7,884 nt of DNA from an uncultured Lysobacteraceae bacterium (GTDB lineage Bacteria; Pseudomonadota; Gammaproteobacteria; Xanthomonadales; Rhodanobacteraceae). Below, piece after piece: positions 1-7,884 of this stretch; within the stretch, counting starts at the first letter, position 1, and the number at the start of each line of letters is the position of its first letter. The translations under genes were made by a program, and so were the position numbers. Location: NCBI GenBank assembly GCA_946482585.1, contig CAMLSI010000241.1, positions 1-7,884 of the forward strand, in the 5' to 3' direction. Under the pieces are notes generated by a model. It made no database searches and was not told where the DNA came from. It was given only the letters and a program-made list of their open reading frames with translations.

Positions 1-1020
1 CTGCAGCGTCAGGATCGCCTGGAACCCTACCGGCTCGAAGAAGGCCGGCTGTTCCGCGTGTACCTGATCAAGCGCGGCGCGGCGTCGTACTCGCTGCTGT
101 TCAGCTGCCACCACATCATCCTCGACGGCTGGAGCCTGCCGCTGCTGCACGACACGGTGCACCGGTTCTATATCCGGCTGCAGCGCAACGAGCCGGTCGA
201 CGTGCAGGAAGACACCGCCTACGTCGCGGCACAGCGCTATCTCGAAGCGCACCGACACGCGCATCTGGACTACTGGAAATCGCAGTTCGAACGCCTCGGC
301 GAAGCCGGCAACTTCGCGGGCCTGATCAATGCCCGCACCCGCTACAAGGTCGATTTCGGCGACTACGACACGGTGCTCGAGCATCGCACCCGGACGCTGT
401 CCGTCGACGCGCGCTGCATCGCCCGGATCAAGGACTGGTGTACCGGCAACCGGGTGACGCTGCATTCGGTGCTGCAGTTTGCGTGGCACGAAGTGCTGTT
501 CGCGGTCGGCGGCAGCATGGTCACCTCGGTGGGCACGGTCATTTCCGGGCGCGGTCTGCCCGTCGACAGCATCGAAAATTCGGTCGGCCTCTACATCAAC
601 ACCCTGCCCTCGATCGTCGATCATGCCGCGCAGGCGCACCGCACCATTGCCGAAGCGCTGGCGGAAATCCAGGACGCCATCAACCGGATGAACAGCCGCA
701 GCGCGGTCGAACTGTTCATGGTCCAGACCCAGGGCAGCAAGCGCCGACTGTTCGAAACCCTGCTGGTACTGGAGAACTATCCGCGGCTGCTCGGCGAGGA
801 CGAGGCTGCGCTGCACCACGAATTCCTGCGCTTCGAGAAATCCTACGACTCGGACAAGGTCGACTATCCCATCGCCGTCGTCGCACGCGAGAACGGCGAC
901 AGGCTGGACATCAACCTCTGGTATGCCGGCGAACTGTTCGACGAGAGCACCATCGACACGCTGCTGGCGATGCTCGACAGCCTCTTCCACCAGGTCGCGG
1001 ACGATTTCGACGCGACGGTC
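1..1020 (+). other. Condensation domain, aminoadipate-to-cysteine step (N-terminus missing)
   Basis: This is the C-terminal two thirds of an NRPS condensation domain. It is predicted to form the peptide bond between the upstream aminoadipyl thioester and cysteinyl-S-carrier. The catalytic motif HHIILDG is at residues 37-43 of the window translation (nt 109-129), with both histidines, Asp and Gly intact. Further on are a C5-type motif (ISGRG at 181-185, then VGLYINTLP at 196-204) and a C7-like stretch around residues 240-262 (MVQTQ, then LLVLENYP). The first C motifs (C1, C2), which normally lie about 100-130 residues before HHxxxDG, are outside the window. The acceptor is the Cys module immediately downstream. 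The donor assignment (aminoadipate) is inferred from the ACV synthetase architecture. Confidence 0.88.
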
Positions 1021-4000
1021 AGCAGTCTCGATCTGGTCAGCGGCGACGACCATCGTCGGTTCGAGGACTGGAATCGCACCGAAGCCACTTTCCCCGCGCA
1101 TCGCACGCTGCATGCAGGCTTCGAGATCGCGGCCGAGACCTGGCCGGACGTCGTCGCGGTGGTCTCGGGCGAGAATCGCCTGAGCTATCGCGACCTCAAT
1201 CGACGGGCGAACCGGATGGCGCGTTTCCTCTGCGCGCAGGCGCCGCTGGCCGCCGACCGTTTCGTCGCGCTGGTCATGGACAAGAGCGAGTGGATGATCG
1301 CGGCGATCCTCGCCGTCTGGAAGGCCGGTGCCGCGTATGTGCCGATCGATCCGTCTTATCCCGACGACCGCGTGCGCTTCATCCTCGAAGACACCGGCGC
1401 CCTGCTGGTGCTGACCGACAGCCCGAACGTCCATCGTCTGCGCCAGCTCGCCGATGGTCTGCCCTGCCAGGTCTTCGGTGTGCAGGACGTGCCGCTGGCC
1501 AGCTACGCGGACGACAATCCGGCGTCGCCGACCACCAGCACCGATCTGGCTTACGCCATCTATACCTCCGGCACCACCGGCCGCCCGAAGGCGGTGCTGA
1601 TCGAGCATCGCGGCGTGGTCAACCTGCACACCTCGCTCGAAAAGCTCTTCGCTTTGCGCCGCGACCAGGGCGACGAAGCCATCCTGTCGTTCTCGAACTA
1701 CGTGTTCGACCATTTCGTCGAGCAGATGACCGACGCGCTGCTGTCAGGCCAGACGCTGGTGATGCTCGACGATGCGATGCGCAGCGACAAGGCGCGGCTC
1801 TACGCCTACATGAACCGCAACCGGGTGACCTATCTGTCCGGCACGCCGTCGGTGCTGTCGCTATACGAATACGGGTCGGTTCCCTCGCTCAAGCGGATCG
1901 ACGCCATCGGCGAGGATTTCACCACGCCGGTCTTCGACAAGATCCGCTCGACTTTCGACGGCCTGATCATCAACGGTTACGGCCCGACCGAGATCTCGAT
2001 CACCAGCCACAAGCGCCTGTACCCGAAACACGAACCGCGCCTGGACAAGAGCATCGGCCACCCGGTGGCGAACACGGCCTGCTACGTGCTCAACCCGCGG
2101 ATGCAGCGCGTCCCGGTCGGCGGCATCGGCGAGCTGTACATCGGCGGCATCGGCGTGGCCCGGGGTTATCTGAACCGCCCCGAGCTGACCGCGGAGCGCT
2201 TCGTCGCCAATCCGTTCCAGAGCGATGAGGAGAGGCGCCAGGGCGTCAACGGTCGCCTGTACAAAACCGGCGATCTGGTGCGCTGGCTGCCCAACGGCGA
2301 ACTCGAATACCTCGGCCGCAACGACATGCAGGTGAAGATCCGCGGCCAGCGCGTGGAACTGGGCGAGATCGAGGCGATCCTCGCGGCCTATCCCGGTGTC
2401 TCGCGCGCCATCGTGCTCGCGCGCCAGTTCGCGGGCACCGCGGCCGGCGGCGACGCATCGCAGAAATATCTGGTCGCCTTCTACCTCAGCGAGCGCGAGC
2501 TTCCGGAGACCGAGATCCTGCACTGGATGCGGGCACGGCTGCCGCAGGCGATCGTGCCGGTGCGCGCGATCCGCATCTCGGAAATCCCGGTGACCGCCAG
2601 CGGCAAGCTCGACGTCAAACTCCTGCCGGCGACCGAATTCGCGCTGGAGGGCCGGGCCGACCACGTACCGCCGACCAACCAGACCGAACGCGATCTGTGC
2701 CGGCTCTGGGCGAAGATGATCGGCCTCAGTCCCGACAGAATCGGCATCCGCGACGATTTCTTCGGCTCGGGCGGCGACAGCCTGCGAGCGATCCATCTGG
2801 CGCAGTCGATCACCGAGCATTTCGCGCAGTCGTTCAACGTCGCCGCGGTGTTCGCCCACCCGAACGTCGAAGCGCAGGCGAAACATCTGAAGGACAGTGC
2901 CGCGTACGGCAGCCGCGAGGAACCCTCGCCGGCGGGCATGGCCGCCACCGCCGGCGCGACGCCGCCGGTCTCACTGGCGCAGGAGCGTCTGCTGTTCATC
3001 GACGACTTCGTCGGAGGCACGGCCGCCTACAACGTGCCCTTCGCCTGCGTGCTCGACGCCGGGCGCGGCGAGGCGGCGACGGCAGGCGACGTCGAGACCG
3101 CACTGCGGGTGCTGCTGCGGCGCCATGCGGCGCTGCGCACGCTGCTTCAGGGTACGGGCGACGGCACGCGCGTGCAGAAGATCCTCGACGAGGATGACGC
3201 TTCGCACCGGTTCGACGTTCCCCTCACCGCGGTGCCGGATCGCACCGCCCTCGACCGCGAGCTCGTCGCCGACTTCGCCCACGTCTTCCGCCTGGAAGAC
3301 GCGCTGCCGGTCCGTGCCCGCCTGTTCACCGTGGCCGACATGCCCCAGCGGATCGTACTGGGCCTGGTGTTCCACCACACCTGTTTCGACGGCTGGTCGT
3401 GGCGGATCTTCCGCGAAGAACTGGAATCGCTGCTGGCGGGAACGCCGACCGGCGACCTGCCGCCGCTGAAGGCGACCTACGCGGATTTCGCGGTCTGGCA
3501 ACGCCAGCAGCTCTCCAGTCAGCGCCTGGGCGTGCTGCACGCGTACTGGCAGCAGGCGCTGAGCGGCTGGCAACCGCTGAACCTGCCGCTCGACCACCCG
3601 CGTCCCGCGCAGTTCGACTACCTCGGCCGCGAGGTCGTGTTCGAGATCGACGGCGCGCTCACAGACCAGCTCCGGGTGCTCGCGCAGACCAGCCGCATCA
3701 GCTTCTTCAGCGTGATGCTGGCCGCGTACTACCTCACACTGCAGGCCTGCAGCGGACAGAGCGACCTGATCGTCGGCACGCCGTCGGCGCACCGCAGGCA
3801 CGGCGACTTCGATGGTGTCGTCGGGTTCTTCGCCAATCTGCTGGCGCTGCGCACCACCATCGACAATCGCGGGCGCCTGCGGGACTACCTGCGCGGAGTC
3901 GGCCAGCTCGTGCTGCAGGCGCAGCTGCACGAGGACTTGCCCTTCGAACAGGTGGTCAAGGCCCTCGGCGTGGAGACGGATGCGAGCCGTCACCCGGTGT

Positions 4001-7000
4001 TCCAGGCCGTCTTCAGTCTGCTGAACGAGGAGTCTGTCGGCGCTGCCTCATCGTCGCTTCAGCGTTATGCGCCCGACGACGACGGCCGCACGACCGCCAA
4101 GTTCGACCTGTCCGCAACGGTGTCCGAGCAGGCGCACGGCCTGTCGGTGAATGTCACCTATGCCGCGCAGCTGTTCGATCCGGCGAGCATCGACGGCGTC
4201 ATCGCGACCTACCGGCAGATCCTGCGCGAATTCTGCCGCCTCGCGCCGCGGGCGGAATCCGCCGTGCTGTCGGAGATCCGCTACGTCGAGCCGCTGCCGC
4301 GGCCGGCACCGGCCGCGCGCACGCCATGCGCGGAGACGCTGCACGCGACGTTCGCGCGGATGGCCGCAGCGCACGCGGAGGCGACCGCCGTCGTGCACGG
4401 CGACACGCGTCTGACCTACGCCGCGCTCGATGCGCGCGCCAACCAGCTGGCGCATGCGCTGCGGCGCCACGCCGCGCTCGCGCCCGGCGACTTCGTCTCG
4501 CTGGCGATGGACAAGAGCGAATGGACCATCATCGCGATCCTGGCCGCATGGAAGGCCGGCGCCGCGTATGTGCCGATCGATCCGGGTCACCCCGACGAGC
4601 GCATCGCTTTCATGCTGGAGGACACCCGGGCCAAGGTGGTGCTCGCCGACGAGGCCTGTTGCGCACGCATCCGCGCGCTGGTCGCAGGCAGCGGCACGCC
4701 GGTGCTGGACGTGCGCGCGCTGCGGCTCGATGACGAACCGCACGCAGCGCCGGCCGTCGCGACCACTCGAGACGACACCGCCTACGCGATCTACACCTCG
4801 GGCACCACAGGCCGGCCCAAGGCCGTGCTGGTGCGTCACGCCAACGTGCAGAGTTTCCGCGACGGTCTCGCCGAACGCTATTTCGGCGATGGGGCGCAGC
4901 GCCAGGCGGTGCTGTTCCTGTCCAGTTACGTGTTCGACTTCTCGATCGAGCAACTGGTGTTGTCGATCCTCAGCGGCCACACGCTGATCGTGCCCGAGGC
5001 GGATCCTTTCTTCGACGACGCCTTCTACCGGCGCATGAACCGCGACGGGCTCAGCTACATCAGCGGCACGCCCAGCCAGCTGCAGCTATTCGATCTGTCG
5101 CGGCTGGAACACCTGGTCGCGGTGCTCGTGGCGGGCGAAGCTTTTCGCGCCCACCACTTCGACAAGATCCGTCAGGAGTTCGCGGGCCCGCTCTACAACG
5201 CCTACGGAACCACCGAAACGACCGTCTACAACCTGGTGCGCTGCTTCGCGATCGGCGCGCCCTTCCGCAACGACCTCGGCAACGTCCTACCCAACGCCGA
5301 GCTGCACATCCTCGATGGCGATCTGCGCGAACTGCCCCCGGGCAGCTTCGGCGAAATCTGCCTCGTCGGCGACTGCGTCAGCGCCGGTTACCTCAACCGC
5401 GACGAACTGACCCGGACGCGCTTCGTGCCGAATCCCTTCCAGACAGACGTCGAGCGCAGCGAAGCGCGCAACGCCTCGCTGTATCGGACCGGCGACATCG
5501 CGCGGCGCCGGCACACCGGCGAACTGGAATTCTTCGGGCGCAACGATCATCAGGTGAAGATCAACGGCGTGCGCATCGAACCGGGCGAGATCGAAGCGGT
5601 CGCAGCCGCTTTCCCCGGCATCGAGCAGTGCGCGGTGGTGGCGCGCAGCGATGCGGGCCCGCTCGGCGGCAGCCGGCTGGTCTGCTACTACGTGGCGACG
5701 GCCGACGTGAGCGAAAGCGATCTCGCGAACCACCTGCGTTTGACGCTGATGCCGGCGATGGTGCCGTCGACGCTCACGCGGATCGATGGCGCCCTGCCCC
5801 TGACCGTGAACGGCAAGCTCGACGTCGCCGCGCTGGCGCGTTTCGACAAGGCCGTGGACGATGCCGATTACGTCGCACCCGCCGACCGCCTGGAGGTCCG
5901 TCTTTCCCGCATCTGGAGCGGCGTGCTGAATGGCCGGCTGGTCGGCGTCCACGACGACTTCTTCCAGATTGGCGGCGACAGCATCTCGGCGCTGCACCTG
6001 ACCAGTCACATCCGCCGGAAATTCAGCCAGAAGGTCAGCGTCAAGCAAGTTTTCGACTTCCCCACCGTGCGCTCGTTCTGCAAGCACGTGCTGAAGGCAT
6101 TGCCCGTCGTCGCGCCCGAGCGACCGCATACCCCGCCCGTGGGCGAGTGCCGCCGGCTGCCGATCCAGGACTGGTTCTTCGCCAAGGCCCTGCACGACCG
6201 CGGACACTGGAACCAGTACCTCACCATCCGCACGCCGGCGCTCGATGTCGAGCGGCTCCGCGTCGCGCTCGACAAGCTGGCGCGGCATCACGACGCCTTC
6301 CGGCTGCGCTATCGCGTGTCGGAGACCGATCCGACGGTCGTGGTGCAGCACTACGCCGATGTCGATACGGACATCGCGCACCTCCTGCACGTCGTCGATC
6401 TCGACGCGACGGACGAAGGCACTCTGGATGCGCGGTTGCAGGCCCTGCAGGGCAGCTTCGATCTCGCGCACGGTCCGCTGTGCCGGGCCGCCGTCGTCAG
6501 CGGGTTCGCGGACGGCACCGCACGGGTCTGGATGTCGCTGCATCATCTGATCGTCGACGTGGTCAGCTGGGGAATCCTCTGTCGCGATCTCGAAGCCCTC
6601 TACCAGGGCGAGGCGCTGGAGCCGCCCTCAAGCGACATCGGCCGCTGGGCCGAGGCGCTTTACGCCTATACGCCCGGAGCCGACGAACGGCGTCTGTGGG
6701 AAGAGACGGCCCGCGAGGTCGACGCCGAGAAGGCGGCGTCGCGCTGGGTGCGATCCGGCCGCGACCGTCATCATGAACGTTTCGAGCTGGGCCGCGACGA
6801 TACTGCGGCCCTGATCGGCCGACGCAGCCGGTCCGCCAACGTCCACACCGTCGACCTGATGCTGGCCGCACTGGGCCAGACACTGCACGCGCTCACCGGC
6901 AGACCGCGGCATTTCGTCACCATGGAAAGCCACGGACGGGAGGCGCTGAAGGGCGCGCCCGACGTGCAGGATACGTTGGGCTGGTTCACCGCCATGCATC

Positions 7001-7884
7001 CACTCGCAATCGTCGGTACCGACGATATCGGGGAAAGCCTGGCCGCGACACGCGCAAATCGCCATCGCATTCCGTTCAACGGCATCGGCTACGGCGCGCT
7101 GCGCGGAACCTATGGCGGCGAACGGGCGCCGCTGCCGGGCATCAGCTTCAACTATCTGGGCATGTTCACGGACCCGCAGGCGCCGAGTAGCCGCGAACTC
7201 GACGCGACGGCGCGCTGGCAGCTGGACGCGGCACGCTGCGGCATCAGTCAGTCCGATCGGGACGCGAACGCGAGCGAAGGTCTGATCGACATCTCCGCGC
7301 GCTGCATCGGCGACCGGATGGTGGTGGATGTCGACAGCCGCCTCGACGCCGAGACCACCGACCGCTTCGCCGAGCTGTTCAAGATGCGTCTCGAAGCGTG
7401 CTCCGCCTACATCGCCGAAGCGCGCCTGATCTTCAGCCCGCCGGGCAAGACGTCATCGGCGGCGTACCGATCGGTCGAGTTCGAGCCCTGCTTCGTGCTC
7501 AACGAGACCGCGAAGGGGCCGACGCTGTTCGTCCTGCCGCCGGGCGAAGGCGGTGCAGAAAGCTACATGAACAATATCGCCAAGCAGCTTCCACAGCTGC
7601 GCCTCGTGCTGTTCAACAACGTGCATCTGCATACGCGGATGGTGTCGTTCGAGGACATCGCGCAGTACTACCTGCCCCACGTCCGCAGACTGCAGCCGCG
7701 CGGCCCCTACCATTTCTTCGGCTGGAGCTTCGGCGGCGTCTGCTCCATGGAGATGGCCCTGCAGCTGCAGGCCCAAGGCGAGCAGGTCGCCAGCCTGCTG
7801 ATGGTCGACTCGTTCTTCAACACCGAGAAGGCCGTCGAAGATCTCGGTCTGCCCCGGCACGGCAATTCCCTGGACCCGATCAAC
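1..7884 (+). CDS. pcbAB: ACV synthetase (delta-(L-alpha-aminoadipyl)-L-cysteinyl-D-valine synthetase), NRPS, partial at both ends
   Basis: Frame 1 is open from the first to the last base (2628 codons, no stop), so the gene starts upstream and ends downstream. The translation gives C(partial)-A-T-C-A-T-E-TE(partial), the order of the last two modules of ACV synthetase, a cytoplasmic enzyme of about 3700 residues that makes the beta-lactam precursor tripeptide from aminoadipate, cysteine and valine using ATP. The two A-domain pocket codes read as Cys (DHESDIGIT-K) and Val (DFESLAAVY-K). They match the published fungal ACV synthetase codes DHESDVGIT and DFESTAAVYK, as I recall them, at all but one position each. 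An E domain directly followed by a TE is also typical of this enzyme. All core catalytic motifs are intact, so the gene looks functional. About 900-1000 residues (A1-T1 and the start of C) and roughly 100-150 C-terminal residues should lie outside. An ACV-like synthetase with a modified third substrate is the main alternative. Confidence 0.88.
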   Translation, partial: MQRQDRLEPYRLEEGRLFRVYLIKRGAASYSLLFSCHHIILDGWSLPLLHDTVHRFYIRLQRNEPVDVQEDTAYVAAQRYLEAHRHAHLDYWKSQFERLGEAGNFAGLINARTRYKVDFGDYDTVLEHRTRTLSVDARCIARIKDWCTGNRVTLHSVLQFAWHEVLFAVGGSMVTSVGTVISGRGLPVDSIENSVGLYINTLPSIVDHAAQAHRTIAEALAEIQDAINRMNSRSAVELFMVQTQGSKRRLFETLLVLENYPRLLGEDEAALHHEFLRFEKSYDSDKVDYPIAVVARENGDRLDINLWYAGELFDESTIDTLLAMLDSLFHQVADDFDATVSSLDLVSGDDHRRFEDWNRTEATFPAHRTLHAGFEIAAETWPDVVAVVSGENRLSYRDLNRRANRMARFLCAQAPLAADRFVALVMDKSEWMIAAILAVWKAGAAYVPIDPSYPDDRVRFILEDTGALLVLTDSPNVHRLRQLADGLPCQVFGVQDVPLASYADDNPASPTTSTDLAYAIYTSGTTGRPKAVLIEHRGVVNLHTSLEKLFALRRDQGDEAILSFSNYVFDHFVEQMTDALLSGQTLVMLDDAMRSDKARLYAYMNRNRVTYLSGTPSVLSLYEYGSVPSLKRIDAIGEDFTTPVFDKIRSTFDGLIINGYGPTEISITSHKRLYPKHEPRLDKSIGHPVANTACYVLNPRMQRVPVGGIGELYIGGIGVARGYLNRPELTAERFVANPFQSDEERRQGVNGRLYKTGDLVRWLPNGELEYLGRNDMQVKIRGQRVELGEIEAILAAYPGVSRAIVLARQFAGTAAGGDASQKYLVAFYLSERELPETEILHWMRARLPQAIVPVRAIRISEIPVTASGKLDVKLLPATEFALEGRADHVPPTNQTERDLCRLWAKMIGLSPDRIGIRDDFFGSGGDSLRAIHLAQSITEHFAQSFNVAAVFAHPNVEAQAKHLKDSAAYGSREEPSPAGMAATAGATPPVSLAQERLLFIDDFVGGTAAYNVPFACVLDAGRGEAATAGDVETALRVLLRRHAALRTLLQGTGDGTRVQKILDEDDASHRFDVPLTAVPDRTALDRELVADFAHVFRLEDALPVRARLFTVADMPQRIVLGLVFHHTCFDGWSWRIFREELESLLAGTPTGDLPPLKATYADFAVWQRQQLSSQRLGVLHAYWQQALSGWQPLNLPLDHPRPAQFDYLGREVVFEIDGALTDQLRVLAQTSRISFFSVMLAAYYLTLQACSGQSDLIVGTPSAHRRHGDFDGVVGFFANLLALRTTIDNRGRLRDYLRGVGQLVLQAQLHEDLPFEQVVKALGVETDASRHPVFQAVFSLLNEESVGAASSSLQRYAPDDDGRTTAKFDLSATVSEQAHGLSVNVTYAAQLFDPASIDGVIATYRQILREFCRLAPRAESAVLSEIRYVEPLPRPAPAARTPCAETLHATFARMAAAHAEATAVVHGDTRLTYAALDARANQLAHALRRHAALAPGDFVSLAMDKSEWTIIAILAAWKAGAAYVPIDPGHPDERIAFMLEDTRAKVVLADEACCARIRALVAGSGTPVLDVRALRLDDEPHAAPAVATTRDDTAYAIYTSGTTGRPKAVLVRHANVQSFRDGLAERYFGDGAQRQAVLFLSSYVFDFSIEQLVLSILSGHTLIVPEADPFFDDAFYRRMNRDGLSYISGTPSQLQLFDLSRLEHLVAVLVAGEAFRAHHFDKIRQEFAGPLYNAYGTTETTVYNLVRCFAIGAPFRNDLGNVLPNAELHILDGDLRELPPGSFGEICLVGDCVSAGYLNRDELTRTRFVPNPFQTDVERSEARNASLYRTGDIARRRHTGELEFFGRNDHQVKINGVRIEPGEIEAVAAAFPGIEQCAVVARSDAGPLGGSRLVCYYVATADVSESDLANHLRLTLMPAMVPSTLTRIDGALPLTVNGKLDVAALARFDKAVDDADYVAPADRLEVRLSRIWSGVLNGRLVGVHDDFFQIGGDSISALHLTSHIRRKFSQKVSVKQVFDFPTVRSFCKHVLKALPVVAPERPHTPPVGECRRLPIQDWFFAKALHDRGHWNQYLTIRTPALDVERLRVALDKLARHHDAFRLRYRVSETDPTVVVQHYADVDTDIAHLLHVVDLDATDEGTLDARLQALQGSFDLAHGPLCRAAVVSGFADGTARVWMSLHHLIVDVVSWGILCRDLEALYQGEALEPPSSDIGRWAEALYAYTPGADERRLWEETAREVDAEKAASRWVRSGRDRHHERFELGRDDTAALIGRRSRSANVHTVDLMLAALGQTLHALTGRPRHFVTMESHGREALKGAPDVQDTLGWFTAMHPLAIVGTDDIGESLAATRANRHRIPFNGIGYGALRGTYGGERAPLPGISFNYLGMFTDPQAPSSRELDATARWQLDAARCGISQSDRDANASEGLIDISARCIGDRMVVDVDSRLDAETTDRFAELFKMRLEACSAYIAEARLIFSPPGKTSSAAYRSVEFEPCFVLNETAKGPTLFVLPPGEGGAESYMNNIAKQLPQLRLVLFNNVHLHTRMVSFEDIAQYYLPHVRRLQPRGPYHFFGWSFGGVCSMEMALQLQAQGEQVASLLMVDSFFNTEKAVEDLGLPRHGNSLDPIN
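1081..2640 (+). other. Adenylation domain, predicted L-cysteine specific
   Basis: This domain activates an amino acid as the aminoacyl-adenylate and loads it on the following carrier. Motifs in order: A1 LSYRDL (394-399); A2 WKAGAAYVPID (440-450); A3 YTSGTTGRPK (521-530); A5 NGYGPTE (658-664); A6 GELYIGGIGVARGY (711-723 region); A7 YKTGD (754-758); A8 GRNDMQVKIRGQRVELGEIE (772-791); A10 SGKLD with the catalytic Lys at 869. Aligning by eye to GrsA gives pocket residues D570, H571, E574, S613, D634, I636, G659, I667, T668 and K869. The published ACV synthetase Cys code, as I recall it, is DHESDVGIT, so only one conservative change (V to I) is seen. The A9 region reads LPQAIVP rather than the common LPxYMIP. 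The A3 loop ends PKA instead of the usual PKG. Confidence 0.9.
2656..2895 (+). other. Thiolation (peptidyl carrier) domain of the cysteine module
   Basis: This is a short four-helix carrier domain that holds cysteine, then the aminoadipyl-cysteinyl dipeptide, on a 4'-phosphopantetheine arm. The attachment serine is S927 (nt 2779-2781) in DDFFGSGGDSLRA, residues 918-930. The usual consensus is DxFFxLGGDS. Here the Leu before GGDS is Ser (S923) and the preceding position is Gly. The serine, the GGD and the following LRA are intact, so phosphopantetheinylation by an Sfp-type transferase is still expected. A linker of roughly 25 residues, rich in Ala, Pro and Gly, separates it from the next condensation domain. 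Confidence 0.9.
2962..4260 (+). other. Condensation domain, dipeptide-to-valine step (complete)
   Basis: This complete condensation domain is predicted to join aminoadipyl-cysteine from the preceding carrier to valine on the next one. Motifs in order: C1-like SLAQERLLF (991-999); C2-like RRHAALRTL (about 1040-1048); C3 catalytic HHTCFDGWS (1125-1133, HHxxxDG at nt 3373-3393); C4-like YADFAVWQR (about 1160-1168); C5-like IVGTPSAHRR with VGFFANLLALR (about 1257-1285); C6/C7-like HEDLPFEQVV and HPVFQAVFSLLNE. There is no E domain between the cysteine carrier and this domain, so the donor should stay L-configured (LCL type), as expected for ACV. It joins the next A domain through an Ala/Pro/Arg-rich linker around residues 1430-1442. 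Confidence 0.9.
4327..5850 (+). other. Adenylation domain, predicted valine specific
   Basis: This domain activates the third amino acid of the tripeptide. Motifs: A1 LTYAAL near residue 1471; A2 WKAGAAYVPID (about 1517-1527); A3 YTSGTTGRPK (1598-1607, nt 4792-4821); A5 NAYGTTETT (1733-1741); A6 with GYLNRDELT; A7 YRTGD (1828-1832); A8 GRNDHQVKINGVRIEPGEIE; A10 VNGKLD with the catalytic Lys at 1939. Pocket residues aligned by eye to GrsA are D1646, F1647, E1650, S1688, L1709, A1711, A1734, V1742, Y1743 and K1939, that is DFESLAAVYK. The known ACV synthetase valine code, as I recall it, is DFESTAAVYK. The single difference is Leu for Thr at GrsA position 299, which could slightly alter the pocket. 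Valine is the most likely substrate; a related branched aliphatic residue cannot be excluded. Confidence 0.87.
5872..6105 (+). other. Thiolation (peptidyl carrier) domain of the valine module
   Basis: This carrier holds valine and then the finished tripeptide before epimerization and release. The motif DDFFQIGGDSISALHL lies at residues 1985-2000, with the phosphopantetheine serine at S1994 (nt 5980-5982). The GGDS(I) form, with Asp before the serine, is commonly seen in carriers that precede an epimerization domain, and one follows here. The domain ends with VFDFPTVRSF, the usual last helix of a carrier domain (xVFxxPTVxxL). Confidence 0.92.
6151..7440 (+). other. Epimerization domain (L-Val to D-Val in the tripeptide)
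   Basis: This is a condensation-superfamily domain that inverts the alpha carbon of the carrier-bound C-terminal residue. It opens with RLPIQDWFF (2052-2060), the usual E-domain start (PIQxWF). The active-site motif is HHLIVDVVSW (2181-2190, nt 6541-6570), which has the VVSW ending of E domains instead of the DGWS of condensation domains. Later motifs are MESHGRE (2308-2314), LGWFTAMHP (2327-2334 region) and SFNYLG (2382-2387). The likely second catalytic residue is E2309 of the EGHGRE motif, which here reads ESHGRE. The position after the valine carrier and before a TE fits formation of the D-valine residue of ACV. Confidence 0.92.
7519..7884 (+). other. Type I thioesterase domain (C-terminal half missing)
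   Basis: This alpha/beta-hydrolase domain releases the finished tripeptide from the last carrier by hydrolysis. It begins with TLFVLPPGEGGAES (2508-2521), the usual first strand and oxyanion loop. It carries the nucleophile motif GWSFGG at 2574-2579, with Ser2576 (nt 7726-7728). D2603 in LLMVDSFF is the likely catalytic Asp. It lies 27 residues after the serine, the same spacing as S80-D107 in the surfactin thioesterase. The catalytic His should be about 100 residues later and is outside the window. The domain follows the E domain with only a short linker (about 2480-2506) and no other domain between. In ACV synthetases this thioesterase is known to favour the LLD stereoisomer. Confidence 0.92.

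Follow-up and report, generated by a model that had tools for sequence, protein, structure and literature searches.

A partial pcbAB gene predicted to encode the cysteine and valine modules of an ACV synthetase in a Lysobacteraceae-type gammaproteobacterium

Domain organization of the window

The window, by which we mean the whole 7,884-nucleotide stretch of DNA that was analyzed, is spanned by a single forward reading frame (positions 1-7884, plus strand) of 2,628 codons that contains no stop and is open at both ends. GC content lay between 0.64 and 0.70 across the seven kilobases profiled, and the GC content at third codon positions (GC3) of this frame is 0.87. Nine further ORFs among the 22 listed for the window (seven on the minus strand and two out of frame on the plus strand) were scanned, gave no Pfam match and were rejected as genes.

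Pfam stretches in the window comprised three condensation-type, two AMP-binding, two carrier and one thioesterase (TE) domain. The third condensation-type domain resembles the C-terminal parts of the bacitracin, tyrocidine and gramicidin S synthetases in the PDB and carries the motif HHxxxDxxSW; judged by those matches, the motif and general knowledge of such enzymes, it is probably an epimerization (E) domain. Since the Pfam stretches, together with the PDB matches and motif of this third domain, add up to C (partial)-A-T-C-A-T-E-TE (partial), the arrangement C-A-T-C-A-T-E-TE put forward in the original prediction is right, and the pocket codes bear out the succession of Cys and then Val that went with it. 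Alignment places the window at residues 990-3618 of a 3,716-aa protein, P0001, so that the beginning of the first C domain and the last ~98 residues of the TE domain are missing from it.

All of the domains lie on the plus strand. Condensation domain 1, whose N-terminal part is missing, occupies positions 1..990 (end approximate; Pfam, PDB and motif), has HHIILDG at nt 109-129 and is predicted to join aminoadipate (Aad) to Cys. It is followed by adenylation domain 1 (1120..2625, C-terminal end approximate; Pfam and pocket code), with the predicted cysteine code DHESDIGITK, and by carrier (T) domain 1 (2692..2889; Pfam and motif), with GGDSLRA at nt 2770. Condensation domain 2 (2965..4236; Pfam and motif) has HHTCFDG at nt 3373 and would join Aad-Cys to Val, while adenylation domain 2 (4339..5844; Pfam, PDB and pocket code) carries the predicted valine code DFESLAAVYK and carrier domain 2 (5863..6090, ends approximate; Pfam and motif) has GGDSISA at nt 5971. 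The epimerization domain (6139..7206; PDB and motif), predicted to convert L-Val to D-Val, contains HHLIVDVVSW at nt 6541, a motif that we take to denote epimerization function. The thioesterase domain (7522..7884; Pfam and motif) is truncated by the end of the window and contains PPGEGGAES at nt 7537 and GWSFG at nt 7720. As far as they are covered, two copies each of HHxxxDG and GGDS and one each of HHxxxDxxSW and GWSFG are intact, and the terminal E domain followed by the TE likewise has its motifs HHLIVDVVSW, PPGEGGAES and GWSFG intact.

Pocket codes and substrates

Pocket codes were extracted by motif alignment to the GrsA positions and interpreted by the usual assignments of such codes. 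In the window and its 120 best matches, the pocket of the second (Cys) module reads DHESDIGITK in 90 of 121 sequences, the window included, and DHESDVGITK in the remaining 31. The pocket of the third (Val) module reads DFESLAAVYK in 79 of the 121, again including the window, DFESTAAVYK in 30, DFESVAAVYK in nine and single variants in three. Both codes of the window agree with the patterns by which we recognized ACV synthetases (DHESD[IV]GITK for Cys and DFES[LTV]AAVYK for Val) and are shared with the ACV synthetase of Lysobacter lactamgenus, which suggests that the two modules would accept cysteine and valine.

The first module lies upstream of the part equivalent to the window. In P0001 it has the aminoadipate code EPRNLVEFVK, and among the 113 of 120 listed matches with more than 800 residues upstream this same code was found in 71, including P0001, while the other 42 deviate from it at one to three positions.

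Identity as an ACV synthetase

The protein search scored 7,970 candidates, of which 7,231 fell below an E value of 1e-50, and the best 120 of these 7,231 are the matches listed here. Their bit scores of 2,615-6,192 exclude chance similarity. The nine best are 3,678-3,744 aa long, and condensation, AMP-binding, carrier and thioesterase domains are all present in 119 of the 120, the sole match that lacks a thioesterase being the partial protein P0115. Closest among the matches listed is P0001, encoded on a 97-kb contig, which has the same pocket codes and matches the window residue for residue at 2,442 of 2,629 aligned positions (93% identity) with one gap, so that 7% of residues differ. The L. 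lactamgenus ACV synthetase (PcbAB; P0006) has the same domain order and the same Cys and Val codes and is 74% identical over 100% of the window; it differs at 26% of residues, and in the tree the window is set apart from it in a five-row subclade together with P0001-P0004. The ACV synthetases of Xanthomonas (sp. 3307 and sacchari) and of Luteimonas sp. XNQY3 share the architecture at 69-70% and 59% identity, but lie on separate branches, that of Luteimonas being long. The named Streptomyces (52-55%) and fungal (41-44%) proteins are likewise three-substrate enzymes, but sit on distant branches. Two further ACVS-like proteins, P0102 and P0113, are assigned to the tardigrade Paramacrobiotus metropolitanus.

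According to the relevant passage of a review (PMC6097109), ACV synthetase makes ACV from aminoadipate, cysteine and valine with inversion at valine. The window almost certainly encodes a piece of this enzyme, PcbAB, as was originally predicted: the pocket codes, the architecture and the 93% identity to a full-length protein that has the aminoadipate module all support it, and this piece and its kinship are observed directly. The order C-A-T-C-A-T-E-TE by itself is not, to our knowledge, unique to ACV synthetases, and could also belong to a different nonribosomal peptide synthetase (NRPS) with Cys and Val modules and a terminal E-TE that has nothing to do with beta-lactams. The sequence already contradicts this reading, since whole-length identity is higher to known ACV synthetases (74% to L. 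lactamgenus, and still 52-55% and 41-44% to the named Streptomyces and the fungal proteins) than to other NRPSs (30-32% for the 12 best-listed plasmid NRPSs), the pocket codes are of the ACV synthetase type, and the TE stretch PPGEGGAES is common to 113 of the 120 listed matches. An unrelated NRPS is therefore extremely improbable.

Phylogeny and origin

A FastTree tree of 121 rows, consisting of the window and its 120 best matches, was midpoint-rooted. The window pairs with P0001 (support 100), and these two form a five-row group with P0002-P0004 (support 100). This group is part of a ten-row clade (support 98) that also contains L. lactamgenus, two Xanthomonas proteins, the protein P0005 from a Lysobacteraceae MAG, and P0007; Luteimonas (P0011) branches just outside. 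Because four end branches are long, that of P0011 among them, and 101 of the 121 rows have an odd composition, we gave no weight to the deeper branches. A comparison with fungal, actinobacterial and Lysobacter PcbAB had been proposed along with the prediction, and in this tree the window indeed groups with L. lactamgenus and Xanthomonas, with Streptomyces and the fungi distant.

A proteobacterial host had been suggested from the free use of GAA beside GAG, and this fared less evenly. The GAA share of glutamate codons, 0.46 in the window, falls within the range of three Lysobacteraceae ACVS genes (0.32-0.55) and above that of eight actinobacterial loci (0.05-0.24), which agrees with the suggestion, as does the tree. 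However, the CAA share of glutamine codons (0.06) lies outside the range of the same three Lysobacteraceae genes (0.15-0.34) and inside that of the eight actinobacterial loci (0.01-0.25). GC3 of the window, at 0.87, also exceeds that of the three Lysobacteraceae genes compared (0.77-0.80). A Lysobacteraceae-type proteobacterial origin is thus supported by the tree and, in part, by codon use.

Gene surroundings in Lysobacteraceae relatives

Clusters around the ACVS gene were read in three Lysobacteraceae genomes, G245, G243 and G001, whose ACV synthetases are 99.97% identical to P0005, 98.7% identical to the Xanthomonas sp. 3307 protein and 100% identical to the Luteimonas sp. XNQY3 protein, respectively. 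G245 and G243 belong to the clade that is sister to the five rows including the window, and G001 lies just outside. The three share a common, cephabacin-type order, in which NRPS-PKS genes and then two MacB/FtsX permeases precede pcbAB, and isopenicillin N synthase (IPNS), a pair of expandase-like oxygenases and a PLP enzyme of class V follow it. Of the three oxygenases of G001, the first was identified by its matches to isopenicillin N synthases of solved structure (E value 4e-113) and the second by its matches to deacetoxycephalosporin C synthases (E value 1e-115), while the third has a Pfam 2OG-Fe(II) oxygenase domain and is ~55% identical to the counterparts of the second; the corresponding names in G243 and G245 were given by homology to the G001 genes. 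No NCBIfam name was obtained for any IPNS or expandase-like protein of G001 or G245. The permeases were identified by a domain scan in G243 (MacB_PCD, FtsX) and by homology in G001 and G245, and PKS domains were found in G243 and G245, the upstream genes of G001 being matched by homology. The PLP enzyme is of Pfam class V in G001 and G245. By the usual nomenclature the cluster genes would be called cefE, cefF and cefD; since the PDB matches of the PLP enzyme (C-S lyases and cysteine desulfurases) are weak, it is its position and class that suggest cefD. Of the neighbors that had been predicted for the window, pcbC, expandase-like genes and transporter genes are present in these three relatives, and a beta-lactamase in one of them.

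The clusters differ in what follows them. In G243 there is a class C beta-lactamase after the cluster, which had no match beyond itself among the loci compared (E value 1e-5, including the DNA read of G245 and G001). A MobA/MobL relaxase lies ~1.3 kb past this gene and a Shedu (SduA_C) defense-like gene ~9 kb past it (L093:14739-16628 and L094:2721-3782, both on the minus strand), and the G243 cluster may for this reason lie within a mobile island. In G245 the cluster is followed (L095:3452-5074) by genes for a CmcJ-family oxidoreductase (NCBIfam, above cut-off) and a CmcI-like methyltransferase (Pfam RMNT_CmcI; NCBIfam, below cut-off). Among the loci compared, homologs of both were confined to three from Streptomyces (L002, L003 and L004) and to Pseudoalteromonas G002. 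Some cephabacins are 7-methoxy compounds, and a CmcI/CmcJ pair presumably leads to a 7-methoxy product, so that these genes suggest a 7-methoxy cephem in G245.

This variation bears on the possibility that the window belongs to a true ACV synthetase whose cluster makes another beta-lactam, such as a penicillin, a simple cephalosporin or a cephamycin, with no NRPS-PKS side chain. Gene content varies within the clade, G245 having the CmcJ and CmcI-like genes and G243 the class C beta-lactamase instead. The surroundings downstream of pcbC in the actinobacterial loci examined also differ from those of the Lysobacteraceae clusters and vary among themselves, with expandase-like genes beside pcbC in four of the eight (L002, L003, L004 and L007) and a PLP gene resembling the one in G245 at two (L004 and L007), within the DNA examined. 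However, an NRPS-PKS homolog and two expandase-like genes are present in all three of the Lysobacteraceae clusters read, and we consider a cluster for another beta-lactam unlikely.

IPNS beside ACV synthetase across loci

We chose 17 loci for comparison, consisting of G245, G243, G001 and 14 others. IPNS adjoins the ACVS gene in all 12 loci whose ACV synthetase has at least 42% identity (G245, G243, G001, G002, L002-L007, L009 and L010); it is downstream in 11 of these and upstream in G002. The latter, from Pseudoalteromonas (L100-L102), has genes for ACVS and IPNS together with two expandase-like and the CmcI/CmcJ-like genes in a span of ~36 kb, and its ACV synthetase lies on the fungal/tardigrade side of the midpoint-rooted tree.

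One could also imagine an ACVS-like synthetase that has no pcbC, its tripeptide serving for instance as a thiol peptide in its own right instead of becoming a beta-lactam, or its cluster having decayed. IPNS was not found in the DNA available for L011, L012, L013, L016 and G527, whose enzymes are 30-37% identical to that of G245, and these distant loci lend the idea a little weight, although several of the stretches end soon after the gene and the enzymes may be other than ACV synthetases. They (L011, L012, L013, L016 and G527:C2) come from Rickettsiales, Alteromonadaceae and Gammaproteobacteria MAGs and another genome, L012 and L013 being from one MAG. Against this stand the pairing with IPNS in all 12 loci examined at 42% identity and above, and the intact frame and motifs of the window, so that we regard a synthetase with no pcbC as very unlikely.

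Distribution

The rarity of the gene was gauged by searching with the window's TE part (E value 1e-25). A match was found in three of 395 genomes sampled from the family (including G001, the center of the sampling), one of 11 from the genus of G245 (G245 itself), one of 398 from the order (again G245) and two of 369 from the class (G245 and G527). The TE of G527 is 38% identical, and its enzyme may be other than an ACV synthetase. As all samples except that of the genus were drawn from larger groups, and the draw from the order missed G001 and G243, these figures give only a rough measure. A scan of genome contigs produced at least 591 stretches and the best 80 of at least 419 relatives, of which L001-L013 and L016 were read closely; the other 66 of the best 80 showed 26-61% identity over all or part of the TE.

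In the plasmid collection, no record covered 80% of the query at the DNA level, the best covering 13%. At the protein level, the 12 best-listed of 2,618 records were 30-32% identical, and one of the remaining 2,606 had an identity of 60-80%. Viral contigs yielded no relative of the TE part. With its three matches among the 395 family genomes sampled, the ACVS gene is rare in the family but of a known kind.

Proposed function and significance

Taken as a whole, the window is probably an internal piece of the pcbAB gene of a Lysobacteraceae-type gammaproteobacterium, with a cephabacin-type cluster around it. The first module and the neighbors of the window's gene lie beyond the ends of the window, and they, like its expression and product, are what we infer. 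The product of pcbAB would be a delta-(L-alpha-aminoadipyl)-L-cysteinyl-D-valine synthetase of ~3,716 aa, of which the window would cover about residues 990-3618. The missing first module would load L-aminoadipate and the two modules in the window Cys and Val; the E domain would then invert the terminal valine to D-Val, and release of LLD-ACV would fall to the TE. IPNS, an expandase and a hydroxylase, presumably encoded next door, would turn this tripeptide into a cephem, to which the product of a neighboring NRPS-PKS would be attached, as in the cephabacins. Most of this outline follows the cephabacin pathway as generally known, and the NRPS-PKS and expandase-like genes conserved in the relatives fit cephabacin-type biosynthesis.

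Given this kinship, a cephem of the cephabacin type is the most likely product of the source organism, although its cluster could be broken or silent. L. lactamgenus is known as a cephabacin producer, as the title of a reference listed in PMC4657364 also indicates. The biosynthesis of the 7-formylamino cephabacins had not been defined, as one passage of a review puts it (PMC6097109).

It is a tentative and rather doubtful idea that the window and P0001-P0004 represent a lineage that carries a distinct variant of the cephabacin cluster, in which varied tailoring genes and NRPS-PKS modules would yield an undescribed cephem; the basis for tailoring variation in such clusters is the CmcI/CmcJ-like pair of G245. 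The window adds one more copy of an enzyme already known, not a new kind of system, and it leaves the understanding of the pathway unchanged. Few Gram-negative bacteria are known to make cephem antibiotics. An additional branch of ACV synthetases in the Lysobacteraceae, with kin in Xanthomonas and Luteimonas, widens the set available for comparing pathways of the cephabacin type and the ways in which beta-lactam genes have spread.
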